Source: Haliscomenobacter hydrossis DSM 1100 (GTDB lineage Bacteria; Bacteroidota; Bacteroidia; Chitinophagales; Saprospiraceae). Taken from it: a DNA stretch of 36,314 nt. Every line of letters starts with the position of its first letter. The stretch's first letter is position 1. The stretch covers positions 2,500,001 through 2,536,314 of the forward strand of contig NC_015510.1 of the NCBI RefSeq assembly GCF_000212735.1. The letters run 5' to 3'. Below are positions 9,480 to 32,227 of this stretch, one piece after another. A program made the translations under genes and the position numbers. The notes below the pieces were generated by a model that had not been told where the DNA came from, did no database searches, and saw only the letters and a list, made by a program, of their open reading frames with translations.

Positions 9480-9558
9480 GGTTCGGGAGTTCGGAGTTCG
9501 GGGGTTCAAAGCACAATGCTCCGACCTTCGAACCCTCAAACCTTCGAACTCTCGAACC
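9480..9558. repeat. Iterated-word inverted repeat, word GGTTCGnn (copy 1)
   Basis: The left arm (9480-9507) is made of GGTTCGGG-like 7-8-nt words; the right arm (9530-9558) carries the complementary CGAACC words. They are separated by a 22-nt spacer. It lies between ruvA and sprA. A further GGTTCG/CGAACC pair (9405-9410 with 9417-9422) sits between it and the sprA start. The same word recurs at 32131-32227. Confidence 0.8.
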
Positions 9559-9563
9559 TTCTT

Positions 9564-10154
9564 TTATGCAGATAGCTCTCTTAGAGCAAGCTTGATTAGC
9601 TGCTCTACATTTTGGATAGCCTGGTCTTTCAGAAGATGATTTAAGGCCTTTTGAACCGCTATCTTCTGGAAGCCCAACGCTACCAATGCAGATAACGCCT
9701 CTTCCCGAATAGTATTGTTTTGTGAAGGAAATGTTAACGGCAAATCTCCGGAATCTTTTATCAGTTTATCTTTCAAATCCAAAATAATGCGTTTGGCCAT
9801 TTTGGGGCCAATGCCTTTTACTGCCCGAAAAACCTGCTCTTGCTCGCCGATAATGGCGGCGCGAAGCTCGTCAGGACTAAGCGAGGACAGCATAATTTGG
9901 GCGGTAGTGGGGCCAACTCCACTCACCGAAATGAGGTGTCGGAAAAGGCTGCGCTCGGCTTCTTCCGCAAAACCATACAAGGTGTGGCTGTCCTCTTTGA
10001 TGTTTAAATGGGTCAGGATTTTGACTTCTTCTTTCTTTTCGATCTGACTGTAGGTATGCAAACTGATGTGCACCAAATAGCCTACCCCTGCTGTTTCAAC
10101 AACGATGTAGGTTGGCGTTTTTTGGGTGATGTTTCCTCTTAAGTATGTGATCAT
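9564..10154 (-). CDS. ruvA: Holliday junction branch-migration protein RuvA
   Basis: RuvA tetramers bind four-way DNA junctions and load the RuvB motor for branch migration during recombination and repair. The 196-residue product has the usual length. It starts with the OB-fold text MITYLRGNI, followed by two helix-hairpin-helix segments, seen as LISVSGVGPTTAQIML and AVKGIGPKMAKRIIL. The C-terminal part (about residues 150-196) is the flexible RuvB-binding domain. It diverges from purD, and the intergenic space is filled by an iterated-word palindrome. It sits upstream of sprA on the same strand, with 190 bp to the chosen sprA ATG. Confidence 0.95.
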   Translation of the reverse strand: MITYLRGNITQKTPTYIVVETAGVGYLVHISLHTYSQIEKKEEVKILTHLNIKEDSHTLYGFAEEAERSLFRHLISVSGVGPTTAQIMLSSLSPDELRAAIIGEQEQVFRAVKGIGPKMAKRIILDLKDKLIKDSGDLPLTFPSQNNTIREEALSALVALGFQKIAVQKALNHLLKDQAIQNVEQLIKLALRELSA

Positions 10155-10162
10155 ATTGATTG

Positions 10163-10275
10163 GCTGATTTGCTAATGTGTTGATTTGCTAATAAAAGCGG
10201 CGGCAAATTTAGCACATTTATCAATTATCACATCAGCAAATCAGCACATTATCACATCAACACATTAGCACATTA
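10163..10275. repeat. Iterated-word inverted repeat, word AGCACATT-like, in the ruvA/purD divergent region
   Basis: The right arm (about 10225-10275) is a run of degenerate 8-nt words (ATCACATC, AGCAAATC, AGCACATT, AACACATT). The left arm (10163-10192) is their reverse complement (GATTTGCT, AATGTGTT and similar). The spacer is about 32 nt. It occupies most of the space between two divergent genes, so it must overlap or flank their promoters. Confidence 0.75.
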
Positions 10276-10288
10276 CCCCATTAATTTC

Positions 10289-10296
10289 TATTTTTG
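10289..10296 (+). promoter_or_regulatory. -7 box of the purD promoter
   Basis: TATTTTTG matches TAnnTTTG and lies 20 bp before the purD ATG, implying a very short leader. The -33 position falls inside the right end of the AGCACATT-type repeat (TTAG rather than TTTG), so the match is half a promoter. Confidence 0.4.
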
Positions 10297-10316
10297 CGGC
10301 CAAAATCGAGAAAACC

Positions 10317-11582
10317 ATGAAAATTCTGTTGCTTGGAAGTGGAGGAAGAGAACACGCCTTGGCCTGGAAGTTGCGGCAAAGCCCGCTTTGTACAGCACTC
10401 TGGATTGCGCCAGGCAATGCCGGAACGGCTGAATTGGGAACCAACATCGCGCTGGATCCCAATGATTTTCCAGCAGTGGCAGATCTGGTACAACGTGAAG
10501 GCATCGACATGGTTTTGGTAGGCCCCGAAGAACCCCTGGTGCGGGGCATTTATGATTATTTCCAGGTACATTTCCCCAATTTGCCCGTGATCGGGCCCTC
10601 CCAGGTGGGTGCTCAACTGGAAGGCAGCAAGGCTTTTGCCAAAGAATTTATGCTCGAAATGGGCATTCCTACTGCGGCTTATCGCGAGTTTACTGCGGCT
10701 ACCCTGCAAGCTGGACTGGATTATATTTTGACCCAAACACCACCCATTGTGCTCAAAGCCGATGGCCTTGCGGCCGGCAAAGGGGTGGTGATTTTGGACG
10801 ATTTGGCCGCTGCTCAGGCCGAATTGCGCGACATGTTGAGCGGCAAGTTTGGTGCAGCCAGTGCCAAAGTTGTGATTGAGCAATTTCTCTCCGGCATCGA
10901 GTTTTCCGTATTCGCCCTGACCGATGGCAAAGATTATTTGATTTTACCCGAAGCCAAAGATTACAAACGGGTTGGAGAAGCAGATAGTGGCCCGAATACC
11001 GGCGGCATGGGTGCCGTTTCACCCGTACCTTTTGTGGATGAAGCATTGATGAAAAAGGTGGAAGAAACCATCATCAAGCCCACCATTGCAGGTATCGCCA
11101 AACGAGGAATTGTGTACAAAGGTTTTGTTTTCTTTGGCTTGATCAAGGTGGGAGGAGAACCCTTTGTGATTGAATACAACTGCCGTCTGGGCGATCCCGA
11201 AACCGAGGTGGTTATGCCCCGTTTGCAAAATGACCTGGTTGAACTATTGCAAGCTACCCACGAAGGGATCCTGTCGCAACAGCAAATTGTGATGGATCCA
11301 CGCTCGGCGGCGACCATCATTCTGGTATCTGGTGGGTATCCTGGCGATTATGAAAAAGGGAAAGTCATCAGTGGTTTGACGGCAGTAAAAGACAGTATGG
11401 TTTTCCATGCTGGCACCAAGAATTCATCAGATGGGATTGTAACGAACGGCGGTCGCGTTATCGCGCTGACTTCTTTCGGCGATAATTTTGATGAGGCACT
11501 GGTGTTTTCCAATCGCAACGCCGAGGTTGTTAAGTTTGAAGGAAAATATTACCGCAGGGATATTGGTTTTGATTTGCATTGA
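10317..11582 (+). CDS. purD: Phosphoribosylamine-glycine ligase (GAR synthetase)
   Basis: Joins glycine to 5-phosphoribosylamine using ATP, the second committed step of de novo purine synthesis, in the cytosol. The 421-residue length matches monofunctional PurD. It begins with MKILLLGSGGREHALAWKL. The ATP-grasp domain follows, with KADGLAAGKGV near residues 145-155, the GPNTGGMGAVSP loop, and the metal-binding NCRLGDPETE near residue 290. It stands alone as a purine gene here, divergent from ruvA and convergent with the POT permease gene. Confidence 0.96.
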   Translation: MKILLLGSGGREHALAWKLRQSPLCTALWIAPGNAGTAELGTNIALDPNDFPAVADLVQREGIDMVLVGPEEPLVRGIYDYFQVHFPNLPVIGPSQVGAQLEGSKAFAKEFMLEMGIPTAAYREFTAATLQAGLDYILTQTPPIVLKADGLAAGKGVVILDDLAAAQAELRDMLSGKFGAASAKVVIEQFLSGIEFSVFALTDGKDYLILPEAKDYKRVGEADSGPNTGGMGAVSPVPFVDEALMKKVEETIIKPTIAGIAKRGIVYKGFVFFGLIKVGGEPFVIEYNCRLGDPETEVVMPRLQNDLVELLQATHEGILSQQQIVMDPRSAATIILVSGGYPGDYEKGKVISGLTAVKDSMVFHAGTKNSSDGIVTNGGRVIALTSFGDNFDEALVFSNRNAEVVKFEGKYYRRDIGFDLH

Positions 11583-11611
11583 TCAGACTGCAATCTACTC
11601 AAAATCATTTT

Positions 11612-11708
11612 TTTAAACACAAAGGACACCACGGAAGCACAAAGGGCACAAGGTGGAATTGCTCCAAGTTGTGTTCCTTGTGCATCCTTGGTGTCCTTTG
11701 TGTTTAAA
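11612..11708. repeat. Inverted repeat with CACAAAGG-like words between convergent genes
   Basis: TTTAAACACAAAGGACACCA (11612-11631) is perfectly complementary to 11689-11708. Inside, GCACAAGG (11646-11653) pairs with CCTTGTGC (11676-11683). The arms reuse CACAAAGG-type words of about 9 nt. It lies between the convergent purD and POT genes, where it could fold in transcripts from both sides. Confidence 0.8.
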
Positions 11709-11738
11709 GTGTCGCTTTGGAGCCCAAGCCCATATTTA

Positions 11739-13325
11739 TCAATGGATTCCATGCATCCACTTCCGCAGCAACGGAATCAATAAAGCCAGTACCACCGTGA
11801 TCCCGAGTACCACGTAAATGCCCCACAACAAATAAGTATCGGTATACACCACCAAAGAATCTGTTCGACTCAATTTGCTGCCATCAAGGTTTCCACCTGC
11901 AGTCAATTTACCAATTTCGCTGGCCATACTATTGCCCAGTGAAATGGACAAATACCAGGCACCCATCACAAAACCCACCATCTTGGCCGGGGAAAGTTTA
12001 CTGATCATGGACAAGCCGATCGGCGAAATACTCAATTCGCCCGAAGTGTGGAAGAAGTACATCAATACCAGAAAAACCAGCGGCATAAGACCATCGGTAG
12101 CAAACGAACGCGCGCCCCAGACGATCAATCCAAAACCAAGCGCAATTTGGAATAAACCCAATAAAAATTTCATCGGTGTGCTTGGCTCCATTTTACGCTT
12201 GCCCAACCACATCCACATCCAGGAGAAGAGGGGTGCCAACAAAATGACAAAAAAGCCATTGAGTGCCCCAAATTGAGACGCCGGAATCTCTGTTCCCAGC
12301 ACCATCCGGTTGACGTTTTTATCCGTAAACAGGGCGATTGAACCTCCGGCCTGCTCAAATAGCATCCAAAAGATCATGTGGAAGAAAAACAAAAATACAA
12401 TGACCAGGAGGCGTTGCCCCTCCTTCCGATCAGGCAAACTCAAGGCATGCCAGATGATGTAGCTCAAGATAAGGATACTCACCGCCAGCAATACCCGGCT
12501 CAGGATGGCATTGGGATTCAGCAGAAACATCACCACCGGGATCAACACAATTGTCCCCAAAATGATGGTCGAATTGACGTTCAAGCCAGCGAATAAAGGC
12601 TTCTTACCGGCATTGGGGTCATTGGGAAGCCCTTTGTCTTCAAAATACTTTGGCCCCAGCCACATGAACAAAATCAAGCCCAGGGTCATCCCGATTCCCG
12701 CCAATCCAAAGCCGTAATGCCAGCCAATGCGCTGCCCTACGTATCCGCAGGTGAGCATGGCCAACAAGGAACCCGTATTGACCCCCATGTAAAAAATGGA
12801 GTAGGCACTGTCTTTGCGCGGATCATCGGGTTCGTAAAAGGTACCCAAAAAACTGGACATGTTGGGTTTAAAATACCCATTGCCCAATATGATGATCGCC
12901 AGCGACAGGAAAAAAATGGTTTGATTGCTTTCAAACCCCGGAATGCCTTGCATCCCCAGGGTAATGTGACCAATGGCCATCAAGGCTGCACCAATAATAA
13001 CCGACTTGCGGAATCCAAAAAAACGGTCGGCGATCACGCCTCCTACCACCGGGAACAAGTAAGCCATTGCCGTATACGCTCCGTATACCCCGATTGCCTT
13101 GGTATTGGCTTGTTGCTCGCCCAGATTGGCGTACAAAACCTTGGCCATATATAAGGTGAGCAAAGCCCGCATACCGTAGTAGGAAAAACGTTCCCACATT
13201 TCGGTGAGGAAGATGATAAACAGGGCTTTGGGGTGAATCTTTCGGTTGGAATAAATGACAATGGGAATCCAGATGAGGACAAATACCCATCCCGAAATGA
13301 GGAGGAGAAGTGCGATGTCTTGCAT
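11739..13325 (-). CDS. POT/PTR2-family proton-coupled oligopeptide transporter
   Basis: An inner-membrane symporter that probably takes up di- and tripeptides with protons. The 528-residue protein is made of long hydrophobic segments consistent with the 12-14 helices of the family. The family signature ExxERFxYYG is present at residues 42-51 (EMWERFSYYG), and a second conserved stretch appears as NGYFKPNMSSFLG. The FYMGVNTGSL segment also fits the PTR2 pattern. The gene starts 10 bp after the prfA stop, so it is probably co-transcribed with prfA. Substrate range cannot be read from sequence. Confidence 0.9.
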   Translation of the reverse strand: MQDIALLLLISGWVFVLIWIPIVIYSNRKIHPKALFIIFLTEMWERFSYYGMRALLTLYMAKVLYANLGEQQANTKAIGVYGAYTAMAYLFPVVGGVIADRFFGFRKSVIIGAALMAIGHITLGMQGIPGFESNQTIFFLSLAIIILGNGYFKPNMSSFLGTFYEPDDPRKDSAYSIFYMGVNTGSLLAMLTCGYVGQRIGWHYGFGLAGIGMTLGLILFMWLGPKYFEDKGLPNDPNAGKKPLFAGLNVNSTIILGTIVLIPVVMFLLNPNAILSRVLLAVSILILSYIIWHALSLPDRKEGQRLLVIVFLFFFHMIFWMLFEQAGGSIALFTDKNVNRMVLGTEIPASQFGALNGFFVILLAPLFSWMWMWLGKRKMEPSTPMKFLLGLFQIALGFGLIVWGARSFATDGLMPLVFLVLMYFFHTSGELSISPIGLSMISKLSPAKMVGFVMGAWYLSISLGNSMASEIGKLTAGGNLDGSKLSRTDSLVVYTDTYLLWGIYVVLGITVVLALLIPLLRKWMHGIH

Positions 13326-13335
13326 GGTTGGTTAT

Positions 13336-14412
13336 TTATGCGCCGATTTCTTCCCCGGCTTTCAATTTTTCCGTATTCTCGTACAATTGCAAACCTTCGA
13401 TGATCGCCTCCAGATCACCTTCCAATACCTTATCCAACGAGTAGATGGTCAGGTTGATGCGATGGTCTGTGACGCGGTTTTGGGGAAAATTGTAAGTGCG
13501 AATCTTGTCTGAACGATCACCGCTGCCGACCAAAGATTTGCGTTTGGCGGCTTGCTCTGACTCGTGCGCTTGACGGCGCATTTCGTATATTTTTTGGTAA
13601 AGGCGTTGCAGAGCAATCTCCCGGTTTTGGATTTGGGAACGGCCATCGGTACTTTCTGAAACCACTCCGGTAGGTAAGTGGGTAAAACGCACCCCGGATT
13701 CCGTTTTGTTGACGTGCTGCCCACCGGCACCACTGGAGCGAAAGGTATCGGTTTTGAGGTCTTCTTTGCGGATTTCGAGGTCTTCCATTTCCAGCTTGGG
13801 CATTACCACCACCGTTGCTGCCGAAGTGTGTACCCGGCCTTGTGATTCGGTTTTGGGTACCCGTTGTACCCGATGTGCACCCGACTCAAATTTGAGTGTA
13901 CCATATACGTCTTCGCCGTTGATTTCCAGCACCAACTTGTTGTAGCCGCCTACCGAGCCTTCATTGATTTCCATGGCGGACACTTTCCAGCCTTTTGACT
14001 CAAAGTAGCGGGTGTACATGCGATATAGATCGCCGGCAAAAAGGCTCGCTTCATCGCCACCCGTTCCGGAGCGAATCTCAAAAATTACATCACGCGAGTC
14101 TTCGGGATCTTTGGGGATCAGCAAAAACTTGATTTTATCCTCCAGTTCTTCAATCTGTGGATTCAAACTTTCCAGTTCCTCCTGCGCCATTTCCCGCATT
14201 TCGGGGTCTTCATCGCTGAGTGCCTGCTTGGCTGAATCCCGATTGCCCACCAGGTTTCGGTAAATGAGAAATGCCTCTACAATTGGTTTGAGGTCCTTGT
14301 AGTTTTTGCTAACCTTTTTGTACCGGTCCATGTCCACGATGATATCGGGGTCCGACATCTGCTCCTCCAAGTTCAAGTACCGATCATAAATGGCTTCCAG
14401 CTTTTCCAGCAT
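13336..14412 (-). CDS. prfA: Peptide chain release factor 1
   Basis: RF1 recognises UAA and UAG in the ribosomal A site and triggers hydrolysis of peptidyl-tRNA. The 358-residue length is typical. The catalytic GGQ is at residues 230-232 (SSGAGGQHVNKTES). The codon-recognition loop reads PKT at 186-188, in VPKTESQGRVHTSAAT. This is the RF1-type PxT and not the SPF of RF2, which separates the two paralogues. The gene diverges from tsaB and is followed 10 bp later by the POT permease gene. Confidence 0.96.
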   Translation of the reverse strand: MLEKLEAIYDRYLNLEEQMSDPDIIVDMDRYKKVSKNYKDLKPIVEAFLIYRNLVGNRDSAKQALSDEDPEMREMAQEELESLNPQIEELEDKIKFLLIPKDPEDSRDVIFEIRSGTGGDEASLFAGDLYRMYTRYFESKGWKVSAMEINEGSVGGYNKLVLEINGEDVYGTLKFESGAHRVQRVPKTESQGRVHTSAATVVVMPKLEMEDLEIRKEDLKTDTFRSSGAGGQHVNKTESGVRFTHLPTGVVSESTDGRSQIQNREIALQRLYQKIYEMRRQAHESEQAAKRKSLVGSGDRSDKIRTYNFPQNRVTDHRINLTIYSLDKVLEGDLEAIIEGLQLYENTEKLKAGEEIGA

Positions 14413-14745
14413 AGCGTTGTTCGATTAAATACCTTGTTTCAAAGGTTTTTTTATAGCTTGGCCAGCAAAATAAGTTGTATTTGTCTGGACAAACTTAAAA
14501 TCTAAAAAAAATTTAATATTGTTTTGGCAAAATTACCACATTTTTTGCATCTTGCAGCATATTATCCAGCCTGTAGCTTTCAACAACCCATTTTTCTATG
14601 GTGAACGCATCATGGAAGTCCAGCATGTTTTAAAAAGTTATCTTTGAACTTATTTTGCGTCAAAGCAAAGTTTTTTTTATCAAGCGATATAGTACGTAAG
14701 TATAAGCTTGCGATATGTAATCGTTTATACAATAAGTTTTCTTGC
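14413..14745. other. prfA/tsaB divergent regulatory region
   Basis: This 333-bp gap is AT-rich and shows no gene. It holds a dyad, TTTGTC-tg-GACAAA (14480-14493), about 70 bp upstream of prfA. It also holds a -7-like TATCTTTG on the plus strand (14639-14646), which would give tsaB a leader of about 90 nt. The reading frame of tsaB extends upstream to a TTG at 14644, but this extension is not family-like. Confidence 0.5.
14639..14646 (+). promoter_or_regulatory. -7 box upstream of tsaB
   Basis: TATCTTTG matches TAnnTTTG. No TTTG is found at the -33 distance, so this is only a partial promoter match. Confidence 0.35.
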
Positions 14746-15435: not shown

Positions 15436-15461
15436 GGTTCCAGATGTTGTATTAACAAAAT

Positions 15462-16051: not shown

Positions 16052-16077
16052 TTTTGTAATTCTAATGTAACATTACT

Positions 16078-16397: not shown

Positions 16398-16425
16398 GTA
16401 GAGCCGCGATGCATCGCGGCTCTAC
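16398..16425. repeat. GTAGAG...CTCTAC palindrome (copy 1)
   Basis: A perfect 28-bp palindrome (GTAGAGCCGCGATG and its complement) between the convergent second ArsR-type gene and the lipoprotein gene. It shares its GTAGAG/CTCTAC ends with palindromes at 22242-22269 and 25285-25314. It has no T tract on either side. Confidence 0.75.
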
Positions 16426-20613: not shown

Positions 20614-21060
20614 ATGAAAGTTGTAGCTGTTAAACCACAAGTACCCTCTGTTTTTGTAGACGAATCTCTCGACCGTCTGATCAATCGTTTCTTTGGCCCA
20701 GAAGTTTCCTTTGGCCCTTTCCGCGATTCAGTGGAAAATCGTCCAGCCGTTAACATCGTTGAGACTGAACAGGCATTCCGCATTGAATTGGCCGCTCCCG
20801 GTTTGAACAAAGAAGATTTCAACATCAAATTGGAAAAAGATACGCTGAGCATCTCGGCCAAAAAAGAAACCACTACCGTGGAAGGCGAAAAAGTGAAAGT
20901 GCGCGAGTTTGCTTACTCCAGCTTCCAACGCAACTTCAATTTGCCCAAAACGGTCAACGCTGAGGCCATCGAAGCCCGCTACGAAAATGGGGTCTTGTTC
21001 TTGACCTTGCCTAAAAAAGAAGAAGCGCTGCCTAAAGTTCAGCAGATTTCGGTAGGCTAA
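20614..21060 (+). CDS. Small heat-shock protein, Hsp20/alpha-crystallin family
   Basis: An ATP-independent cytoplasmic chaperone that holds unfolding proteins. The 148-residue length is typical. The alpha-crystallin domain runs from about residue 45 (PAVNIVETEQAFRIELAAPGL) to residue 135. It includes the conserved ARYENGVLFLTLPK segment, with the family's GxLxxxxP-type motif, and a short C-terminal tail. The N-terminal part contains an LINRFFGPE stretch typical of bacterial members. It stands alone, with a sigma-54-like promoter upstream and an iterated-word repeat directly after its stop. Confidence 0.95.
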   Translation: MKVVAVKPQVPSVFVDESLDRLINRFFGPEVSFGPFRDSVENRPAVNIVETEQAFRIELAAPGLNKEDFNIKLEKDTLSISAKKETTTVEGEKVKVREFAYSSFQRNFNLPKTVNAEAIEARYENGVLFLTLPKKEEALPKVQQISVG

Positions 21061-21069
21061 TTCTTTTAG

Positions 21070-21172
21070 TGATGAGTTATGAGTGATGAGTGATGAATTT
21101 GACCCTGCATTTGAAAGGAGCATACTCATAACTCATAACTCATAACTCATAACTCATAACTCATAACTCATT
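21070..21172. repeat. Iterated-word inverted repeat, 7-nt word ACTCATA
   Basis: The right arm (21124-21172) is six perfect ACTCATA units plus a terminal ACTCATT. The left arm (21070-21097) is four inverted units (TGATGAG, TTATGAG, TGATGAG, TGATGAA). The spacer is 26 nt. The right arm is nearly error-free while the left arm has diverged, which suggests recent slippage expansion on one side. It lies 10 bp after the small heat-shock gene. Confidence 0.85.
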
Positions 21173-22434: not shown

Positions 22435-23754
22435 ATGGATACCCTCAAGAAAAAATTCTACGAGAAATCCAGCGCCTTAAAAGTCGAAATCAAATCCTTG
22501 CTCAAGGAGCACAGCGAATTGATGGTGGATGACGTAAACCTCGGTCAGATTTATGGCGGTGCCCGCGACATCAAAATGATGGTATGGGAAACCTCCGAAC
22601 TGGACGCAATGGAAGGTATCCGCTTCCGGAACATGTCTATTCCGGAATTGAAAGAAAAACTACCCAAAGGTAAAGATGGCAAAGAACCCCTACCGGAAGC
22701 CCTATTCTGGTTGATGCTGGTGGGTGAAGTGCCAACCAAAGCTGAAGCCGACTGGCTGACGGAAGAGTGGCGCAAGCGCAGTACTGTACCAGCCCATGTA
22801 TTCAGCACGCTGGATGCTCTGCCGACCAACACCCACGCCATGACCCAGTTCACGATTGCCATCAATGCCATGCAAACGGAGAGCATCTTTGCCTCCCGCT
22901 ACGACGAAGGCATGAATAAAGACGAGTATTGGGATGCCACTTACGAAGACACGATGAACCTCATCGCCAAGCTTCCACAAGTGGCCGCCTACATTTATCG
23001 CCGCACTTACGCCGCTGGGCAACACATCGCCCCAAGCACAACGGAAGACTGGTCGGGCAACTACGCCCATATGTTGGGTTTTGAGAATGAAGAATTCAAA
23101 GCCTTGATGCGCCTGTACCTGACCATCCACGCCGATCACGAAGGTGGAAACGCATCTGCGCATACTACCCACCTGGTGGGTTCTACCCTCAGCGATCCCT
23201 ATTTGACCTTTGCCGCAGGGATGAACGCACTGGCTGGCCCTTTGCATGGCCTGGCCAATCAGGAAGTGATCAAGTGGATTTTCGATATGCTTGAAGAATT
23301 GGGTACCACTGCGCCGACCAAAGAACAAATCGCTGATTATGTACACGCTACTTTGGCCAAAGGACAGGTAGTGCCCGGTTATGGTCACGCGGTATTGCGC
23401 CGACCTGACCCCCGTTTTATGGCCCAAATGGAATTCGCCAAAGAATACATTCGCCACGACGATGTGGTAGAAGTCGTTTGGAAAGTATTTGACGTCGTGC
23501 CCGGTATTCTGAGCAGCCTGGGTAAAGTAAAAAATCCCTGGCCTAATGTTGACGCCCACTCTGGTGCCTTGTTGGTGCACTATGGCTTGAAGGAGTATGG
23601 CTATTATACCGTTTTGTTTGGGGTTTCCCGGGCATTGGGTGTATTGGCCGCCTTGTGCTGGTCACGGGCATTGGGTTTCCCACTCGAACGGCCAAAATCG
23701 GTTACTACCGAATGGGTTCGGCAATTTTTGGCGGAGCACAAAGCAAAAGCATAA
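22435..23754 (+). CDS. gltA: Citrate synthase, mitochondrial-type
   Basis: Condenses acetyl-CoA with oxaloacetate to citrate at the entry to the TCA cycle. The 439-residue product carries all three catalytic residues: His271 (LAGPLHGLANQEV), His318 (VPGYGHAVLRRPDP) and Asp373 (NVDAHSG). The ADHEGGNASAHTTHLVGS stretch resembles mitochondrial citrate synthase more than the NADH-regulated hexameric GltA of enterobacteria. The N-terminus (MDTLKKKFYEKSSALKVEIK) also fits this class, without a targeting peptide. It is expected to be a dimer. It is followed 160 bp later by gcvH on the same strand, with an iterated-word palindrome between them. Confidence 0.95.
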   Translation: MDTLKKKFYEKSSALKVEIKSLLKEHSELMVDDVNLGQIYGGARDIKMMVWETSELDAMEGIRFRNMSIPELKEKLPKGKDGKEPLPEALFWLMLVGEVPTKAEADWLTEEWRKRSTVPAHVFSTLDALPTNTHAMTQFTIAINAMQTESIFASRYDEGMNKDEYWDATYEDTMNLIAKLPQVAAYIYRRTYAAGQHIAPSTTEDWSGNYAHMLGFENEEFKALMRLYLTIHADHEGGNASAHTTHLVGSTLSDPYLTFAAGMNALAGPLHGLANQEVIKWIFDMLEELGTTAPTKEQIADYVHATLAKGQVVPGYGHAVLRRPDPRFMAQMEFAKEYIRHDDVVEVVWKVFDVVPGILSSLGKVKNPWPNVDAHSGALLVHYGLKEYGYYTVLFGVSRALGVLAALCWSRALGFPLERPKSVTTEWVRQFLAEHKAKA

Positions 23755-23878
23755 AGGTTGAGAAGGGTTGAGGGAGGTTGAGAAGGTTGAGGCTACCGCA
23801 GAGAGACTTAGACAAAACCCTTGTCAGTATTGCCCGCGGCAGCCTCAACCTTCTCAACCGCTCTCAACCTTCTCAACT
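23755..23878. repeat. Iterated-word inverted repeat, word GGTTGAGAA
   Basis: The left arm (23755-23794) is four copies of an AGGTTGAGA-like 9-10-nt word. The right arm (23841-23878) is its complement (CTCAACCTT words). The spacer is 46 nt. It overlaps the end of the citrate synthase gene by a few bases at most and fills most of the gap to gcvH. Confidence 0.8.
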
Positions 23879-23917: not shown

Positions 23918-24301
23918 ATGAATTTTCCTCAAGACTTGCGTTATACCTCCGAACACGAATGGGTTAGTGTCTCGGAAGGCAATATTGCCACCATTGGCAT
24001 CACTGATTTTGCTCAGGGTGAATTGGGCGATATTGTTTATGTAGATATAGATACCGTAGGGAACCAACTCAACGCCAACGAAGTGTTTGGCTCCGTAGAG
24101 GCCGTAAAAACCGTTTCGGATCTCTTCATGCCCGTAGATGGAGAAGTACTGGAAGTAAACGCTGCCCTGGATGGCGCGCCTGATCTGGTCAATACCGATC
24201 CTTACGGCGAAGGCTGGATCATTAAAATCAAGATGAGCGACCCCGCTCAACTTGAAGGGTTGATGGATGCTGCTGCTTACGAAAGTAGTGTAGCGGGGTA
24301 G
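23918..24301 (+). CDS. gcvH: Glycine cleavage system H protein
   Basis: The lipoyl-carrying shuttle of the glycine cleavage system, passing the aminomethyl group between the P, T and L proteins. The 127-residue length is typical. The lipoylated lysine is Lys64 in [20 protein letters not shown]. The N-terminus ([10 protein letters not shown]) and the C-terminal GEGWIIKIK stretch match the family. The other glycine cleavage genes are not nearby. A perfect 31-bp hairpin follows its stop and should terminate it. Confidence 0.97.
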
Positions 24302-24308: not shown

Positions 24309-24378
24309 ATTTTAGCCACAAGCCAAAAAGGCGCTAAGTTTGAATGTACTTAGCGCCTTTTTGGCTTGTGGCTAAAAT
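24309..24378. terminator. Bidirectional terminator with a perfect 31-bp stem
   Basis: 24309-24339 is perfectly complementary to 24348-24378 around an 8-nt loop. The arms carry an AAAAA/TTTTT run in mid-stem. It starts 8 bp after gcvH and ends 6 bp before the end of the DUF4349 gene, so it serves both converging transcripts. The stem is unusually long for a plain terminator. Confidence 0.8.
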
Positions 24379-24383
24379 TGAAG

Positions 24384-25939: not shown

Positions 25940-27048
25940 GTCCGTGGGTTGCCGATTATCAAAACCGGCGCGAACACTAGATAGTAGAGAAGATAAAGTA
26001 CATCCAGAAAAAGCATCCAGGGCCAGAGTGAAAGGGCTTTCAAGCGGCTCAAAATGGGTCGACTTACCGTTGCTACTACCGTGGCTCGCGCCAGGTAAAA
26101 AACCAAGATCATGCTCCATTGACCCGTAGCAACACCCCAGCCCAATCCTGCGGTATAATGCAAGAAGTGGCTGGCGGACAACAAACCCAAACACCATTGG
26201 TGCAGTGGTTTGTAGCGTGTGCCCGTGGTCAAATGACGCGATTTTTGATGGTAGTAGCCTCCCCAAGTCGTTTTGGGGATCGAAAAAACAAAACTTTCTG
26301 AAGCCAACATCACTGCGGTATTCCTCCCATTCGCTGCGGCATTGACAAATAGATCGTCATCGCCGGAAGCAATGTCCAAATGCGTAGAAAAACCCTGTTG
26401 ACGTTGGTAAAGTGATTTAGCGTAGATTAAATTTCGACCAACACCCATGTAAGGCATGCCCACAATGGAAAAAGAGAAGTACTGAATAGCGGTGTATATG
26501 GCCTCAAAGCGAATAAAACGGTTGAGTAAACCGTGGCGATATTCAAATGGACTATAACCTAGTCCAATCAAAACATCATTTTTAATTGTCGACTGCATGA
26601 AACGAATCCAATGGGGGGAAGATGGATAGCAGTCGGCGTCACTCAAAAGAAGCAAATCGTATTTTGCTGCTGCAATCCCCACCTGCAAAGCGTATTTTTT
26701 GCCTGGTGGATGTTGCTCTCTGATCGTAACGGGACGTAAGATCGAATATTTTTTTTTAAACTCCAATAATATTTTTTCACTATTGTCAACAGAATTGTCG
26801 TTAACCACGATTACTTCAAAGAAAGGGTAGTCCTGGCTGAGAAAGCGGTCAAGAAATTTGCTCAAATTGTCCGCTTCATTACATCCACAAATGACGACCG
26901 AAACGGGTGGAAGTTCGGTTTGAGGATGCTCCGGCTCTAAAATAACGGATTCAGGGTATCGACCCAAACGGGAAAACAACAACAACCAAAAGAGCACTTG
27001 CACGAGGGTGGCCCCCATAAAAACCAGTCCAATGATTGTGGCCCCCAT
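25927..27048 (-). CDS. Membrane-anchored family 2 glycosyltransferase
   Basis: Probably transfers a sugar from a nucleotide donor to an envelope lipid or polysaccharide at the inner membrane. The 373-residue protein has an N-terminal membrane helix (residues 3-25). The GT2 domain follows: VSVVICGCNEADNL, the VVNDNSVD strand, the metal-binding SDADC (DAD at 137-139), the GDDD acceptor-side motif (229-232), and a QKSRH (268-272) in place of the QxxRW seen in processive enzymes. Two or three C-terminal membrane helices end the protein. Its ATG directly follows the acyltransferase stop codon without a spacer. Its 3' end overlaps the sigma factor gene. The acceptor is not known. Confidence 0.9.
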   Translation of the reverse strand: MGATIIGLVFMGATLVQVLFWLLLFSRLGRYPESVILEPEHPQTELPPVSVVICGCNEADNLSKFLDRFLSQDYPFFEVIVVNDNSVDNSEKILLEFKKKYSILRPVTIREQHPPGKKYALQVGIAAAKYDLLLLSDADCYPSSPHWIRFMQSTIKNDVLIGLGYSPFEYRHGLLNRFIRFEAIYTAIQYFSFSIVGMPYMGVGRNLIYAKSLYQRQQGFSTHLDIASGDDDLFVNAAANGRNTAVMLASESFVFSIPKTTWGGYYHQKSRHLTTGTRYKPLHQWCLGLLSASHFLHYTAGLGWGVATGQWSMILVFYLARATVVATVSRPILSRLKALSLWPWMLFLDVLYLLYYLVFAPVLIIGNPRTWKH

Positions 27049-28401
27049 TTACTGCGGAATCGATTGAAGCAAGTCATGCAATTGGGTCACAAGCGCAGCC
27101 CTTTCTTCGGCTAACTTATCCTTGATTGGACCAGCATTTTTCAACTTCAGATACGACAATCCATTGTCCATGCGTCTTTTGTTTTTCAGCGTAATTAAGC
27201 CTGTACCGATGGTTGCTGCCAGATACCACCAGCTCCAGGCCGTTGAACTCATGGCTTCAACGAGCAAAGACTGCAATACATAAAAAATGGGAATCGCCAA
27301 TAAACCTACACAAAGCTCCACCGTCGTTTTGTACCCAATATGAAGATTGAATCGACGAACCGCAAAACGACACAAGGCGGTGGCTGGCCAATGATTGATG
27401 GCCGCAAAAACCCAAATTGGCAAAAGCAACCAAAAAGGGAGGAGCTGCTGTTGGCGCGCGACCGGGCCAAGTTGCTGCAGATACACGGCACCTGAGCGAA
27501 TCCTGACTGACTTGAGCGCTGCGGCGTAAGCCTGCACCTGGGCCAAAAACAACGCATGCTGCTCAGGTTCCTCAATGGCAAAATTGCGCAAACGATGCAT
27601 CAGGGCTTTGCTGCGCTGGAAAAAATCGGACAAGGGCAACGGTGCCTCATCACGCAGCAATTCTTCCAGGGTATGCAGCATTTGGTCTTCTTCCTCGTCT
27701 TTGACATTCAAGAGCAAATCCTGCATGCGTTTTTCCAAAAGTGCCGTCAAACGACGTACTGTTCCTTGTGGGTCCGATGCATAGGTTTCGGCAAAATCTT
27801 TGAGAAAAATGGGCTCGCCAGCCTGAATCAACATCTCACTACCAAACTGCTCACGATCGCCAAAGTAGGTATACCCCAGGGGCAAAATGCGCAATCCCAA
27901 TTGAAAATCCTGTAAATTTTCGGCCCCGAGACTAATGCGTGCAGTACCGGTTTTTAAGGGCAAAAGGTTGCGCTCCAATTCATTGCCACCATCAGGAGCG
28001 ATGAACAAATGGCGGTGTTTGGAAAGGTGTTCGATGGCCTGGCGAAAGGAATCTTCATTATCGACTGGGCCACCACCATTGTCTTTGCGGCGCTCCAATG
28101 GGATACAAAACAAAAAACGCAGAATATTGCCGACCCAATCGGGCTTAAACAAACGCGCCATGGCCAGAAAATAGACGGGTTGGTCTACCCAAAGCGCACC
28201 ATTGAGCGCATCCATCAAGGTATTGGGGTGATTCCCAAGCACAATGGTCGGGCCTTTTAGCTTTAATTTGTCCTTGCCCTCCAGGTAAATGTGAGGGTAG
28301 TAAACATGTACTACGATTTTTATCAAAGCTTTTAGAATGGTATAGACAATGCGTTGTAGCAAACTCACGACGTAGGTTTTAAGAGCATACAGAAAACTCA
28401 A
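27049..28401 (-). CDS. PlsC-like membrane acyltransferase with extended C-terminus
   Basis: A probable glycerophosphate or lipid acyltransferase of the inner membrane. Residues 50-180 form the acyltransferase domain, with NHPNTLMD at 57-64 supplying the catalytic His58 and Asp64. CIPLERRKD (about 99-107) matches the second motif. The usual third motif, FPEGxxS, is replaced by APDGGNE (135-141). Motif IV may be ILPLGYTYFG. A long C-terminal part (about 270 residues) adds a helical stretch and at least two pairs of membrane segments (around 325-350 and 370-410). The gene overlaps lpxK by 4 bp and abuts the glycosyltransferase gene, which suggests a role in lipid A or related envelope lipid. The altered motif makes the substrate uncertain. 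Confidence 0.85.
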   Translation of the reverse strand: MSFLYALKTYVVSLLQRIVYTILKALIKIVVHVYYPHIYLEGKDKLKLKGPTIVLGNHPNTLMDALNGALWVDQPVYFLAMARLFKPDWVGNILRFLFCIPLERRKDNGGGPVDNEDSFRQAIEHLSKHRHLFIAPDGGNELERNLLPLKTGTARISLGAENLQDFQLGLRILPLGYTYFGDREQFGSEMLIQAGEPIFLKDFAETYASDPQGTVRRLTALLEKRMQDLLLNVKDEEEDQMLHTLEELLRDEAPLPLSDFFQRSKALMHRLRNFAIEEPEQHALFLAQVQAYAAALKSVRIRSGAVYLQQLGPVARQQQLLPFWLLLPIWVFAAINHWPATALCRFAVRRFNLHIGYKTTVELCVGLLAIPIFYVLQSLLVEAMSSTAWSWWYLAATIGTGLITLKNKRRMDNGLSYLKLKNAGPIKDKLAEERAALVTQLHDLLQSIPQ

Positions 28402-29465
28402 ACTTTAAAATTGAGCAAATAATTTTGGATCAATTGATCAAATTGAGGGCCTTCATTAAAAAGAAAAGCCACGGAAATAGGCAAAACGAAGATAGGAAGA
28501 TTTTCTGCTTGGATGTATTCCCGGTGTGCTTCGAGTCGCATGGCGTCCTTTTCTGTCGTAAGGATAATTTTATTGGGTGAGTCCAAACGCAAAAATTGCC
28601 CCCGGATATCGAAGAGGTCTGTCGAAGTAAAATTGTGGTGATCGGCGTACTCCTGACTGGTAACCGTTGCCACCCGTGGCGCAAGGTTAGACAAAAGATA
28701 ATCCGTACCCGCAATGGCGCTGAGCAACAATACATCCGTGTCTTTGTCCAACACTTTTTTATACCCCGGATTGAGCAGGTAGTAAGGGTCTTCGTACAGA
28801 TAATGGGTAAAAAAAACTTGCTGATGAGCCAATGGTGCCAATTTTTCAATCATGGCCTGCTTTTGTTCAAGGCTCAAATCTGGCGGACATTTGCTCACAA
28901 TGAGTACATCGGCACGGCGGTATGCTCCACGCCATTCGCGCAGACGACCGGCAGGCAATAAAAAATCACGAAAAAAAGGCCGATCGTATTCGGTCAGCAT
29001 GATATTCAATCCAGGCACGACTGCGCGGTGCTGAAAGGCATCATCGAGCAAGATGGCCTGTATTTCAGGATGACGCCCTACCATTTGGGGAATACCGTAT
29101 GCGCGGTTTTCACAAACCGAAACGGTTACATCCGGAAACTTTCGGCGAAACTGTAGCGGTTCGTCGCCTACCTCCGCCGCACTGTGCTCGGGCAAAACAT
29201 CCATATATCCAGCCGTATTGCGCTTGTAGCCCCGGCTGAGTGTAGCTACTTCGAGGTAGTCGTGTAAAAGCATCAACAGGTATTCGATATGGGGGGTCTT
29301 GCCCGCGCCACCCATCGAGAGGTTACCCACGGAGATCACGGGCAAGTTGAACTTGACCGAGCGAATGATCCCATTGTTGTAAAAGGCATTGCGCAGGGTG
29401 ATCCCGATGCCGTACAACAAGGACAGGGGGGAGAGGAGTAATTTGACGATGATGTTGTCGATCAT
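28398..29465 (-). CDS. lpxK: Tetraacyldisaccharide 4'-kinase
   Basis: LpxK phosphorylates the 4' position of the tetraacylated disaccharide to give lipid IVA, at the inner membrane. The 355-residue product has an N-terminal membrane-associated helix and the Walker A loop GNLSMGGAGKTP at residues 47-58. LSRGYKR and the LLDDAFQHR motif, both conserved in LpxK, follow. It is the first gene of a tightly packed set with the acyltransferase, glycosyltransferase and ECF sigma genes, and has a good promoter match upstream. Confidence 0.95.
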   Translation of the reverse strand: MIDNIIVKLLLSPLSLLYGIGITLRNAFYNNGIIRSVKFNLPVISVGNLSMGGAGKTPHIEYLLMLLHDYLEVATLSRGYKRNTAGYMDVLPEHSAAEVGDEPLQFRRKFPDVTVSVCENRAYGIPQMVGRHPEIQAILLDDAFQHRAVVPGLNIMLTEYDRPFFRDFLLPAGRLREWRGAYRRADVLIVSKCPPDLSLEQKQAMIEKLAPLAHQQVFFTHYLYEDPYYLLNPGYKKVLDKDTDVLLLSAIAGTDYLLSNLAPRVATVTSQEYADHHNFTSTDLFDIRGQFLRLDSPNKIILTTEKDAMRLEAHREYIQAENLPIFVLPISVAFLFNEGPQFDQLIQNYLLNFKV

Positions 29466-29511
29466 GGGAAAAGATTCGTTAAGTGCTTCTAGCGTAGCAC
29501 CAGCACAGGTT

Positions 29512-29542
29512 CAAAATTAGAACTTTTTCTGATACCTTGAAA
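29512..29542 (-). promoter_or_regulatory. Promoter of the lpxK operon
   Basis: On the minus strand TTTC (29542-29539), 19 nt, then TAATTTTG (29519-29512) fits the Bacteroidota TTTG-N19-TAnnTTTG pattern with one mismatch. The ATG is 47 bp downstream of the -7 box. Confidence 0.55.
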
Positions 29543-29566
29543 GAAACAAGCCGACACCTTATTTCG

Positions 29567-29597
29567 GTTGTTCTTAAAGCAAAAAAACGTATTTTTG
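29567..29597 (+). promoter_or_regulatory. Promoter of the small protein/HNH module
   Basis: GTTG (29567-29570), 19 nt, then TATTTTTG (29590-29597) fits TTTG-N19-TAnnTTTG with one mismatch. It lies 46 bp before the ATG at 29644 and back to back with the lpxK promoter. Confidence 0.55.
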
Positions 29598-29643
29598 TAC
29601 AGCACAGTTTCAATGTAAATTTTTTTTGACAAAAAATATAGGT

Positions 29644-30045
29644 ATGTCCAATGTAAAAGCCCAGCCACCAAAAGTAAGCCCTGAACAGATCCTTGCCGAG
29701 ATGGGACAACTTGCGTTGGAGGAGTTAGAGCAAGTAATGAACAAGGGGTATTATTTACTTGCTGAACGTAAAGCACCTCATTTATCCAAACGAGAGACTG
29801 AGTTATTTCTCGAAATCAATAAAGGATTTGAAACTGATTTTCAGAATCGTTATGACGAGCTTAGTGAAAAACTATCGGAAGGGACAATGACACCAGAGGA
29901 AAATAGAGAATTCATCGGCCTAACTGAAATAGTTGAAGAAAGAACCGCCACTCGGTTATTATATTTGATTGAGCTTGCTCAAATTAGGAAAACTACTGTA
30001 CCTGAATTGATGAAACAATTGGGACTTTCCAAGCACTATGGCTAG
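29644..30045 (+). CDS. Small helical protein paired with an HNH nuclease
   Basis: A 133-residue protein of unknown function. It is almost wholly helical and charged. I recall similar small proteins encoded just ahead of HNH genes in cyanobacteria and Chloroflexi. Shared text includes ETELFLEINKGF near residues 50-61, RYDELSEKLSEGTMTPEE, and the C-terminal LIELAQIRKTTVPELMKQLGL. The frame opens at a TTG at 29626, but the ATG at 29644 is preferred and fits the promoter. It overlaps the next gene by 8 bp. Codons and base composition are visibly more AT-rich than in the flanking operons, suggesting transfer. It could be an antidote or DNA-targeting partner of the nuclease; neither is shown. Confidence 0.75.
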   Translation: MSNVKAQPPKVSPEQILAEMGQLALEELEQVMNKGYYLLAERKAPHLSKRETELFLEINKGFETDFQNRYDELSEKLSEGTMTPEENREFIGLTEIVEERTATRLLYLIELAQIRKTTVPELMKQLGLSKHYG

Positions 30046-30475
30046 GACCTACATCAATAAGGCACTTCGAAAACTGGTTTTCGAAAGAGCGAACCATCGC
30101 TGTGAATATTGTAAGAGTATGGCCGAATACTCTTGTCAATCATTCGCTGTTGAGCATATTATTCCATTCATCAAAGGAGGAAAAAGCCAGGAGGATAATC
30201 TTGCTTTAGCTTGTCATGGTTGTAATGGGCACAAATATGAGAAGGATTTAGGCTTTGATCCTTTCGACAACACCGCGTCTCGGCTATTTCATCCAAGAAA
30301 AGATAGATGGGAAGAACATTTTGAATGGAGCGAAGAATATACTCTTATTTTGGGTAAAACTCCAGTAGGACGTTCAACCATTGAGACCCTTAAGCTAAAT
30401 AGACCTGGCCTAATCAACATTAGGCATGTTTTTATTTTAGTTGGCCTACACCCACCAAATAACTCAAAATCATGA
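30038..30475 (+). CDS. HNH endonuclease-like protein
   Basis: A 145-residue protein with a zinc-stabilised HNH (beta-beta-alpha metal) nuclease domain. The pattern is CEYC at residues 22-25, the catalytic-type EHIIP with His40, Asn54 in the DNLALAC helix, and CHGC at 59-62. After it comes GHKYEKDLGFDP, common in stand-alone HNH proteins. The C-terminal 50 residues (from about RKDRWEEHFEW) may bind DNA or the partner. Its start overlaps the small helical protein gene by 8 bp, and its stop overlaps the peptidase start as ATGA, so all three may be translated together. A role in DNA cleavage is expected from the family; defence or toxin function is inference. Confidence 0.88.
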   Translation: MARTYINKALRKLVFERANHRCEYCKSMAEYSCQSFAVEHIIPFIKGGKSQEDNLALACHGCNGHKYEKDLGFDPFDNTASRLFHPRKDRWEEHFEWSEEYTLILGKTPVGRSTIETLKLNRPGLINIRHVFILVGLHPPNNSKS

Positions 30476-32130
30476 TTCAAATCAATATTCTTTTCATTAG
30501 CATACTAATGTTATGCTGGTCATTCTCTTTCGCCCAAATCGCCATTCTCGATTCCGGTGGTCCGCTTAGTCCCGAACAAGCAGCCTACGACGTGAGTTTT
30601 TACGACCTCAGCGTACGCATCATGCCCGATACCCGCGAACTGGAGGGGCAGGTCATCGTGCGGGCCAAGGTACTGCACCCGATGAATCAGTTGGTGCTGG
30701 ATCTGGATACCCTACTGAGTGTAAAGGAAGTATGGGACCTTTCTAACCCTCAAAAACCAAGTGTCGCTCCTTACGCACGCAAAGTGGGCAAAATCTGGAT
30801 CGACCTGGGTTTCACCCGCCAGGCTGGCGAACAAATCTCGGTACGTATATTATATGGTGGCAAACCACGGGTAGCTGCCCGCGCACCCTGGGACGGCGGA
30901 TTCACCTGGGCGACCACCAAAGCGGGAGCACCCTGGATCGCCACCACCTGCCAGGGCGAAGGTGCCGACCTCTGGTGGCCCTGCAAAGACCACGTATCCG
31001 ACGAGCCCGATTCGATGGCGCTGCACGTTAGAGTACCCGAAACTTTGGTCGCCGCCTGCAACGGCAAGTTGTTGAATACCAGCACTCACAAAGACGGTAC
31101 CAAAACCTACCATTGGTACATCTCTACCCCCATCAACATCTACAACGTTGCCTTGAATATTGCGCCTTATCGGGCCATCGAAGGGTCGTATAAAAGTGTA
31201 GCTGGCGAAACCTTCCCGGTGGTTTTTTATGTACTCCCTGAAGATTACGATAAGGGCAAAAAGCTGTTCACCGAAATATTCGAGCACATCAAGTTTTACG
31301 AAAAATTACTGGGCCCCTACCCTTTCCGCATCGATAAATACGGTGTAGTACAAACTCCGCACCTGGGCATGGAGCACCAAAGCATCATTGCCTACGGCGC
31401 CAACTTCAACAATGGCAGCATGACCGGGGGCAAAGATTGGGGTTTTGATGCCCTGCACCACCACGAATTTGGCCACGAATGGTGGGGCAATCTGGTCACC
31501 AATTACGATTGGAAAGACATGTGGATCCACGAAGGTTTTTGTACGTACATGCAAGCCCTGTACATGGAAGAGCTCAAAGGTATGGCGGGCTACCATGAAT
31601 TCATGAATACTTCCCGCCGCTTCCCCAATAACCTGGCCGTAGCGCCCCTCGCCTCCCAATCCTCCAAACAAATTTACCGAGCGCCCATTTATACCAAAGG
31701 AGCCTGGATTTTGCACGCCTTGCGTGCCGTAATTGGCAAAGAGGCTTTGTTGAAATCGATGCGCCGCTTGTGCTACGCCACTCCTGAAGCGGAAAAAATA
31801 AAAGATGGCAGCCAATGCCATTTTGTAACCACCCACGATTTTCAGTTGCTTTGTGAAGCAGAAAGTGGCAAACCCCTGGGCTGGTTCTTCGATGTGTACC
31901 TTCGTCAAGCGCAATTGCCCAAACTCGTTTCCAAAGTAGAAGGCCAAGCCATTAGTTTACACTGGGAAACGCCCCAGGATTTGCCCTTTTCTTTTCCCAT
32001 CGAAGTAAAAATTAATGGAAAAATTCAGCGGATTGATTTGGGTAAAGAAACCATTACCTTATCTTTCAACCCTGGAGACAAACCGGAAGTAGACCCCAAT
32101 CGTTGGGGGCTGTACGATATCGGAAAATAG
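30472..32130 (+). CDS. M1-family (gluzincin) metallopeptidase, secreted
   Basis: A zinc aminopeptidase of the M1 family, probably in the periplasm. Residues 1-21 are a signal peptide ending FSFAQ. The N-terminal beta domain is followed by the catalytic domain with a GMEHQ substrate motif (299-303, where GAMEN is usual) and the zinc site HEFGH (331-335), with the third ligand Glu354, exactly 18 residues later. The 552-residue length is shorter than PepN and lacks its C-terminal helical domain. No type IX sorting domain is present. The start codon overlaps the HNH stop by 4 bp, which is odd for an enzyme unrelated to that module. An alternative start is not available without losing the signal peptide. 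Confidence 0.93.
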   Translation: MIQINILFISILMLCWSFSFAQIAILDSGGPLSPEQAAYDVSFYDLSVRIMPDTRELEGQVIVRAKVLHPMNQLVLDLDTLLSVKEVWDLSNPQKPSVAPYARKVGKIWIDLGFTRQAGEQISVRILYGGKPRVAARAPWDGGFTWATTKAGAPWIATTCQGEGADLWWPCKDHVSDEPDSMALHVRVPETLVAACNGKLLNTSTHKDGTKTYHWYISTPINIYNVALNIAPYRAIEGSYKSVAGETFPVVFYVLPEDYDKGKKLFTEIFEHIKFYEKLLGPYPFRIDKYGVVQTPHLGMEHQSIIAYGANFNNGSMTGGKDWGFDALHHHEFGHEWWGNLVTNYDWKDMWIHEGFCTYMQALYMEELKGMAGYHEFMNTSRRFPNNLAVAPLASQSSKQIYRAPIYTKGAWILHALRAVIGKEALLKSMRRLCYATPEAEKIKDGSQCHFVTTHDFQLLCEAESGKPLGWFFDVYLRQAQLPKLVSKVEGQAISLHWETPQDLPFSFPIEVKINGKIQRIDLGKETITLSFNPGDKPEVDPNRWGLYDIGK

Positions 32131-32227
32131 GGTTCGAAGGTTCGTGAGTTCGGGGGTTCAGCGAGCGGTCACCGAGCGAAGTCGAGGTGTTGGTCGCTGA
32201 ACCCTCGAACCCTCGAACCCCCGAACC
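32131..32227. repeat. Iterated-word inverted repeat, word GGTTCGnn (copy 2), with a nested element
   Basis: Both arms are 34 nt (32131-32164 and 32194-32227) and each is four 8-nt GGTTCGnn words in register. Mismatches fall mainly on the two variable positions. The 29-nt spacer (32165-32193) contains a smaller partial dyad, CACCGAGCGAAGTCGAGGTG, that resembles a short repeat common between bacterial genes. The element begins directly after the stop codon of the peptidase gene. Confidence 0.85.

Follow-up and report, generated by a model that had tools for sequence, protein, structure and literature searches.

The intergenic spaces of Haliscomenobacter hydrossis hold a large population of palindromes whose arms are tandem arrays of a short word, and at several of the sites that we compared with congeneric genomes the palindromes stay while their words are rewritten, swapped or lost. 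The window analysed here is a stretch of 36,314 nucleotides (positions 2,500,001-2,536,314) of the 8.37 Mb chromosome of strain DSM 1100, whose genome comprises 8,771,651 bp in four contigs, and it contains six such elements, referred to below as palindromes 1 to 6 from left to right. All six inverted repeats reported in an initial annotation of the window are present and intergenic, with ends that are off by a few bases at most, and the design described there (an array, a spacer and the complementary array) is recovered, the arms being strongly periodic at four loci and more weakly so at two. The genome holding the window is designated G000 and its congeners G001 to G004. The words are species dialects: three tandem GGTTCG units have 416 matches in H. 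hydrossis and none in the four congeners or in 295 other genomes of the Bacteroidota sample, and three tandem GGTTCC units have 79 matches in G003, four in G004 and none in H. hydrossis, G001 or G002 (overlapping matches are included in the figure of 416, and the reversed control pattern of the GGTTCC triple has two matches in G003).

The detector used to locate palindromes compares, around a centre, the sequence on one side with the complement of that on the other, and returns a stem score together with a z value for arm periodicity; elements with arms at z >=4 are termed periodic, and a looser set is defined by z >=3. About 49 GGTTCC loci are listed for G003, of which 40 were compared with the available H. 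hydrossis sequence (random stretches, the window, and loci L001-L030 and L244, chosen for GGTTCG), and six matched. One of these, L268, was matched by its flank only and lies in the chosen loci, and was dropped; the remaining five lie in random stretches. The H. hydrossis spacer contains GGTTCG words at all five of these resolved GGTTCC sites, four of them being two-armed palindromes and the fifth (L216) a one-armed array mixing GGTTCG and GGTTCC, at which the detector reports no GGTTC palindrome. A mixed array is also present in G003 (L299). With 13 GGTTCG elements against 516 spacers in the H. hydrossis sample, independent insertion would yield five out of five about once in 10^8, and at least four out of five about twice in a million. 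Taken from H. hydrossis to G003, GGTTCC is found at three of the six resolved GGTTCG sites (window 32131, L047:2412 and L244:15980, the last within a locus chosen for its GGTTCG arrays), and the other three carry a non-periodic stem, a GTAGAGACGC palindrome and a GAGTGACGAG-type palindrome.

The range of words that one site may hold is seen most clearly at L244:15980-16066, which has GGTTCG in H. hydrossis, GGTTCC in G003, GTTGAG in G004 and nothing in G001, and at L047:2412-2513, with GGTTCG in H. hydrossis, GGTTCC in G003 and a CAGCAAT-type heptamer in G004. At L244:2271-2448 the word is GTTGAG in H. hydrossis, G001 and G004 but GGTTCC in G003, and the left junction is identical to the base. 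Because the flanking genes of G003 and G004 are about 94% identical, word turnover is fast. Among 16 spacers with a stem of at least 16 in one genome and at least 11 in another, all read by eye, the word or type clearly differs between at least two genomes in 11 and doubtfully in one (24320-24383), and four are unchanged: palindromes 3 and 5 and two others, a gene-sized insertion in G004 at palindrome 3 being set aside. When the words are disregarded, site-sharing between H. hydrossis and its congeners is modest (both 22, H. hydrossis only 24, congener only 12, neither 37), with p=0.02 for the pooled data and no significance for any single congener. Many of the palindromes compared lie at gene-end sites that are common to several species.

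The initial annotation had described the word as different at each locus, which does not hold: GGTTCG is the word of two of the six palindromes, and at the loci other than palindrome 4 (ACTCATA) the word is that of a family with members elsewhere in the genome. About a dozen words of 7-11 nt occur in the H. hydrossis sample. Among the recurrent words are GGTTCGNN, GTTGAGAA (often with an inner GGCTACCGC core), GTTGAA, GTTGAT, CACAAAGG, CACAGATT, CACGACGA, GCGGATT, ATGACGA and AAAGTGA; ATTTCGG, CACCTAAG and GGTTCC recur in the congeners. Orientation is fixed: for twelve words, 127 element-word cases have at least two copies of the word in the left arm, and not one case has the complement there (one element may score under several words); the copies are therefore related, as expected if a family descends from one palindrome. 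A loop core is common to 11 of the 15 CACAAAGG copies looked at, in either direction, all 11 lying in congeners. The 40 GGTTCC elements of G003 that were compared with one another (36 of the 40 fetched loci, with usable arrays, and four others) have the word in common and a mild preference in unit order near the loop; beyond that, the order of the units, the length and most of the loop vary.

CACAAAGGACACNAAGG has 62 matches in H. hydrossis and five in total across three of 197 other genomes, and these remote matches, in G111, G059 and G123 (L229, L230, L231 and L233), lie outside stems. Within the order, four of the 148 other genomes contain triples of GGTTCNNN, in the form of tandem GGTTCTTT, GGTTCATT or GGTTCGAC. 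Among the seven such loci looked at (five distinct places in four genomes), the array at L318 sits in a stem of its own with a score of 16 and a GGCTACCGC core, that at L315 is in a loop, and the rest have no stem. L318 belongs to genome G369, from another genus of the same family, and its GGTTCTTT array with the GGCTACCGC core is perhaps a third dialect of the GGTTC family.

The abundance of these elements is far above what chance would give. In 436 kb of H. hydrossis, made up of the window and 20 further stretches, there are 91 intergenic stems scoring at least 16, against none in either of two dinucleotide shuffles, each of which gave three stems of at least 14 with a maximum of 15; the six loci of the window thus lie well outside the shuffled expectation. 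No periodic element was found in 200 kb of Escherichia coli K-12, nor in 19 kb and a further 200 kb (219 kb in total) of G002. An origin as chance or background features of intergenic sequence is refuted by the shuffles and by the 200 kb samples of these two genomes; we found nothing in its favour and give it practically no weight. The larger sample of H. hydrossis, of 836 kb, has stems of at least 15 at 177 intergenic places, of which 66 have periodic arms, with periods of 7 (17 elements), 8 (25), 9 (14), 10 (9) and 11 (1), arms of 15-107 nt (median 35) and loops of 3-173 nt (median 23.5). At z >=3 there are six elements in the 36-kb window and 91 in the 836-kb sample, so that the window has about 1.5 times the genome's own average and is no local oddity.

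The density of periodic elements in H. hydrossis is 7.65 per 100 kb (64 in 836 kb), and the fetched parts of G003, G004 and G001 have 8.6, 7.9 and 12.1 per 100 kb, values to be read with the proviso that these parts were picked as orthologues and are non-random. Because no periodic palindrome was found in the sampled part of G002, the elements have been gained or lost within the genus; the 200 kb of this genome (L302-L311) does contain 11 other, non-periodic stems. Further afield, 77 other Bacteroidota loci around purD contain 13 periodic elements in 1.31 Mb (0.99 per 100 kb), all of period 7, in hosts that include Mucilaginibacter, Prevotella, Chitinophagaceae and Bacteroidales.

Several traces within the elements point to copying at the DNA level. 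The likeness between arms was measured on arms delimited by the word alone, because arms defined by pairing favour their own partner and length normalisation favours short arms. An arm resembles its own partner more than any other arm of the family in 8 of 20 cases for CAGAT, 9 of 23 for CACAA, 4 of 5 for GACGA, 4 of 30 for GTTGAG and 2 of 10 for GTTGAA, with about 0.5 expected by chance in each. Rare units present in both arms of one element number four in each of the two GGTTC families, against 0.38 and 0.53 with shuffled partners, a level reached in 0 and 3 of 2000 shuffles. Orthologous stems were followed through 18 comparisons with G003 as reference, giving 597 pairs; some non-periodic stems are included, and one comparison of poor homology and pairs flagged for low identity are left out. 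Here 24 pairs changed on both sides (10.8 expected), and in 16 of these Watson-Crick pairing was kept (3.6 expected). At the purD locus the loop in G001 is the reverse complement of that in G003 over 13 bases. Arm homogenisation and spacer inversion are reported outcomes of polymerase template switching (PMC8604942, PMC8794818); arm sharing of this kind is seen here for CAGAT, CACAA, GACGA and the rare units and is weak in the GGTTC families, and one loop inversion was found.

We tentatively attribute the rewriting to DNA-level copying errors on the combined strength of site conservation, word change and these arm traces. The explanation that we favour, and whose chance of being right we put at about even, is a concerted evolution of resident palindromes by slippage, by switching of the template from one arm to the other and by exchange among copies, each family having probably descended from one ancestral hairpin. 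Replication slippage would lengthen and trim the arm arrays. Within an extruded hairpin, a template switch would carry variants from arm to arm and occasionally flip the loop. Exchange with other copies, for which the shared word would act as primer in ectopic template switching or in conversion, would spread a word across sites. Tolerance of the elements in the space between a stop codon and the start region of the next gene would account for their persistence there. The initial annotation had suggested a generating process; the paired variants, paired changes, inverted loop and lack of RNA bias (see below) speak for one, and the idea of a word invented separately at each locus finds no support.

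A number of observations weigh against this explanation. In the families that are central to it the own arm is the closest in only 2 of 23 cases (GTTCG) and 5 of 40 (GTTCC), with about 0.5 expected by chance in each, and the median rank of the own partner is 0.60 for GGTTCG and 0.49 for GGTTCC; copying within a hairpin is therefore insufficient, and words must also be spread or homogenised between loci. Ectopic exchange was not seen as an event. Most stem changes are one-sided (74, against 24 two-sided, among the 597 pairs), and 20 of the 24 two-sided changes are concentrated in four comparisons, three of them at 74-76% identity and the fourth at 83%, levels at which the alignment is soft because of gaps in the tandem arrays; the GGTTCG/GGTTCC pair is itself among those low-identity comparisons. 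In G004 a GGTTC word is kept at none of the six H. hydrossis GGTTCG sites. The explanation does not account for the first dispersal of the families, and a genome-wide one-base change of word is also expected from selection by a word-reading factor.

Such a factor, dragging its sites along with it, is the first rival to concerted evolution. The arrays would then be recognition words read by a trans-acting protein, whether an uptake receptor, a nucleoid protein or a regulator, and the dialect would drift with its specificity. The single-base dialects GGTTCG and GGTTCC and the fixed orientation agree with this, and there are parallels in the DNA uptake sequences (DUS) read by the receptor ComP, which also form inverted pairs and dialects (PMC3630211), and in Geobacter, where similar arrays were proposed to be sites for global regulators (PMC2700814). 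The presence of about a dozen distinct words in one genome argues the other way, as does the loss or swapping of sites between species about 94% identical in their flanks. Counted in coding sequence against permuted words, five of seven words lie close to the mean or under it (GGTTCGAG, for instance, with 17 against 20.1), and two are above it: GGTTCGGG with 58 against 30.7 (standard deviation (SD) 14.6, about 1.9 SD above the mean) and GTTGAAAA with 100 against 20.4 (SD 16.7, about 4.8 SD above the mean). Uptake sequences were rejected as a candidate on these five words, the two excesses notwithstanding. A word reader seems to us unlikely, if worth keeping in view, and we are equally doubtful of the wider proposal that trans-acting machinery (a word-reading protein, or an enzyme copying a short template into hairpin arms) sets an 8-nt dialect in each lineage. 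If it were true, a change in the factor would rewrite every site with the sites staying in place, and several word systems would coexist in one genome and compete for gene-end sites. Non-autonomous palindromes that a transposase mobilises in trans, such as miniature inverted-repeat transposable elements (MITEs), repetitive extragenic palindromes (REPs) or REPINs, would account for the dispersal of the families, the loop core of the CACAAAGG copies, the core found in many GTTGAG elements and the empty sites in congeners, and there are seven Y1 transposase (Y1_Tnp) genes in the genome. Against movement of this kind, the 3.3 kb loci of these seven genes have no palindrome at z >=4 (one REP-like pair reaches z 3.5); target-site duplications of at least 5 nt flank 3.6% of 138 elements against 4.0% in shuffled flanks, duplications below 3 nt being undetectable; and a GTAG or CGTC tag stands at one end of 8 of 138 elements (z >=3) against a background of 6.2%. 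Element boundaries are often not clean, loops and unit order vary among the 40 GGTTCC elements, and GGTTC sites are common to different species. We regard mobility as quite improbable; a single mobile sequence with a transposase partner was rejected on the lack of a RAYT link, of a tag, of target-site duplications and of a shared unit order, and the earlier statement that the elements are not copies of one mobile sequence stands. As a separate observation, REP-like palindromes with CCCCGAAGGGGTGACA (L164, L165, L031:7880-8061) adjoin two of the seven Y1 genes and recur at other places, and are probably the true REP/RAYT system of H. hydrossis.

The position of the elements raises a further alternative, that they are gene-end RNA hairpins, terminators or 3' mRNA stabilisers selected for pairing only, any word serving. 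A gene 3' end adjoins 57 of the 66 periodic elements, within 7 nt in 41 of these (overlaps counted), and spacer occupancy is 18 of 93 for convergent, 35 of 325 for co-directional and 6 of 98 for divergent spacers; open reading frames (ORFs) were called by length only, and an antisense ORF was taken in place of gcvH, which puts some error into these context counts. The convergent excess over divergent spacers is the only significant contrast (p=0.008), and it favours RNA hairpins, as does the fact that one site may hold hairpins of unrelated sequence in several congeners. The difference in occupancy between co-directional and divergent spacers is not significant, however (p=0.24), and nine of the 66 elements have no adjacent 3' end. 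Across 60 co-directional periodic elements (36 from the H. hydrossis sample, 13 from congeners and 11 from chosen loci) the upstream stop lies at a median of 3 nt and the downstream start at a median of 23.5 nt; such an element takes up the room from stop codon to start region, which fits tolerance as well as function. TTTT follows the stem within 10 nt in 9 of these 60, against AAAA in 11. Selection for an RNA stem should favour G-U mismatches, and on the sense strand of the co-directional periodic elements there are 69 G-U and 90 A-C mismatches (95% interval of the G-U share, 0.36-0.51); a positive control on T-tract hairpins, with 9 G-U and 5 A-C in 18 hairpins, is too small to judge. With mixed contexts, no U-tract and no G-U bias, the view that termination alone does not explain the elements is upheld; intrinsic terminators were set aside on the latter two grounds, and selection for RNA pairing more generally we consider improbable. 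The case cautions against taking hairpins next to gene ends for terminators by default.

Gene families and satellites are the usual subjects of work on concerted evolution, and many scattered sequences changing in concert is an unusual case. Here the change affects small bacterial palindromes that can be compared site by site between sister species, with G002 as a natural control; the system would allow slippage, template switching and exchange between dispersed repeats to be measured together or, if selection is the cause, a word-reading factor to be found. The STRR heptanucleotide repeats of cyanobacteria are likewise short intergenic tandem words, but are described as direct arrays and not as paired inverted arms. 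The initial annotation knew of no named family with this layout; a close description does exist, for Geobacter metallireducens, and it is only a family name that is lacking there, as far as the accessible text goes (PMC2700814). In that text the 'predicted global regulator binding sites' of classes 1-3 and a miscellaneous set (g) (Aklujkar et al. 2009, PMC2700814) consist of tandem octamers (GTTGCTYN, TWGTTGAY) or heptamers (MTYCTGA). These form multicopy pairs with one member on each strand, the spacing varies in classes 1 and 2, and three sets are called unique to that genome. These paired arrays are the closest published layout that we met, sharing with the present elements tandem 7-8-nt words, opposite-strand pairing, variable spacing and several classes per genome. 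They belong to another phylum, have other words (compared by description) and number 8 to 24 pairs per class as against hundreds here, and the description available makes no mention of the gene-end position, orthologous word swaps and species dialects seen here (PMC2700814).

Other known systems are more distant. Arrays of the heptamer TAACTGA are intergenic and occur in some Bacteroidetes also, some relatives having the sites without repeats; they differ in being direct repeats, with a single indirect repeat in the portion of the report consulted, and most of those in the main genome stand directly ahead of a start codon (MacGregor 2015, PMC4679880). REP, BIME and REPIN sequences are described as interspersed intergenic palindromes of 20-40 bp with a GTAG or CGTC tag and, for the GTAG type, a RAYT partner (PMC3733652; see also PMC3116915), and neither tag nor RAYT partner was found with our elements. 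The DUS dialects of Neisseriaceae resemble ours in being species-specific words with single-base differences, and their inverted pairs are linked to terminators; they differ in having thousands of copies, genes included, and mostly one dialect per genome, and the available text does not mention tandem arms (PMC3630211). Template-switch (quasipalindrome) mutation is alike in arm homogenisation and spacer inversion, and is known, as far as these accounts extend, for single repeats and not for a genome-wide word family (PMC8604942, PMC8794818). Dialects combined with site-by-site rewriting of words were not found in published descriptions in the open-licence literature.

The six palindromes of the window, none of which is assigned a strand, have stem scores of 17, 20.5, 28.5, 22, 31.5 and 21.5 in order. 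Arm periodicity is weaker at 11612 (z 3.3) and 23757 (z 3.1), the 95% point for shuffled arms being 3.1, and the other four have z 5.4, 6.2, 8.7 and 6.6. Their contexts are of the kinds first described: co-directional (9477, 23757, 32131), divergent (10155) and convergent (11612, 21068). Palindrome 1 (9477-9561; arms 9477-9511 and 9526-9561), of the GGTTCG family, lies between a sprA-like gene (2000-9391, - strand) and ruvA (9564-10154, - strand), 2 nt past the ruvA stop; in the orthologous spacer G001 carries a GTTCC-like array, and G003 and G004 a 38-nt stem that is not periodic. Palindrome 2 (10155-10285; arms 10155-10192 and 10248-10285), with GTTGATTTGCTAATGT-type words, separates the divergent ruvA (-) and purD (+) and has a shorter, degenerate version without a stem of at least 11 in G001, G003 and G004. 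Palindrome 3 (11612-11708; arms 11612-11657 and 11663-11708), between the convergent purD (10317-11582, +) and a POT-family transporter gene (11739-13325, -), is of the CACAAAGG family, as are its counterparts in G003 and G001; the spacer in G004 has the gene-sized insertion. This insertion (L083), downstream of purD where the congeners carry palindrome 3, measures about 845 nt and contains an open frame whose product presumably resembles an XisH-type protein.

Palindrome 4 (21068-21172; left arm 21068-21099, right array 21124-21172), with the 7-nt word ACTCATA and an inverted repeat delimited at 21068-21168, lies downstream of an hsp20 gene (20614-21060, +), and no orthologous spacer was resolved for it in the congener comparison. 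Palindrome 5 (23757-23877; arms 23757-23799 and 23836-23877), of the GTTGAG family with inner core GGCTACCGC, stands between a citrate synthase gene (22435-23754, +) and gcvH (23918-24301, +); the same element is present in G001 and G003, the site is empty (36 nt) in G004, and G002 has no stem. Palindrome 6 (32131-32227; arms 32131-32164 and 32194-32227), again of the GGTTCG family, begins at the first base past the stop codon of an M1-peptidase gene (30472-32130, +) and precedes a xylose-isomerase-like gene (32246-33298, +); G003 has a GGTTCC array in this spacer, and no stem is found in G004 (empty, 34 nt) or G002. A one-armed half-array, ATTTCAACCCTTCAACC, at this place in G002 could be what is left of a palindrome or the seed of one.

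Rfam gave no match at gathering score in the window. Three other structures were noted there. A perfect 31-bp stem with an 8-nt loop (24309-24378), just past the end of gcvH, looks like an ordinary bidirectional terminator; the shorter stems that the congeners have there are perhaps diverged forms of it. At 16398-16425 there is a short perfect palindrome of GTAGAGACGCGA type, and palindromes of this type are replaced at two spacers by an ATTTCGG heptamer palindrome in three congeners. Finally, an imperfect hairpin of about 165 nt (33396-33562), with TATACCC ends, an inner GACCTGC and non-periodic arms, recurs in the genome at L036:702-864, L043:9099-9281 and 14325-14497, and L164:989-1150, and looks to be of MITE type.

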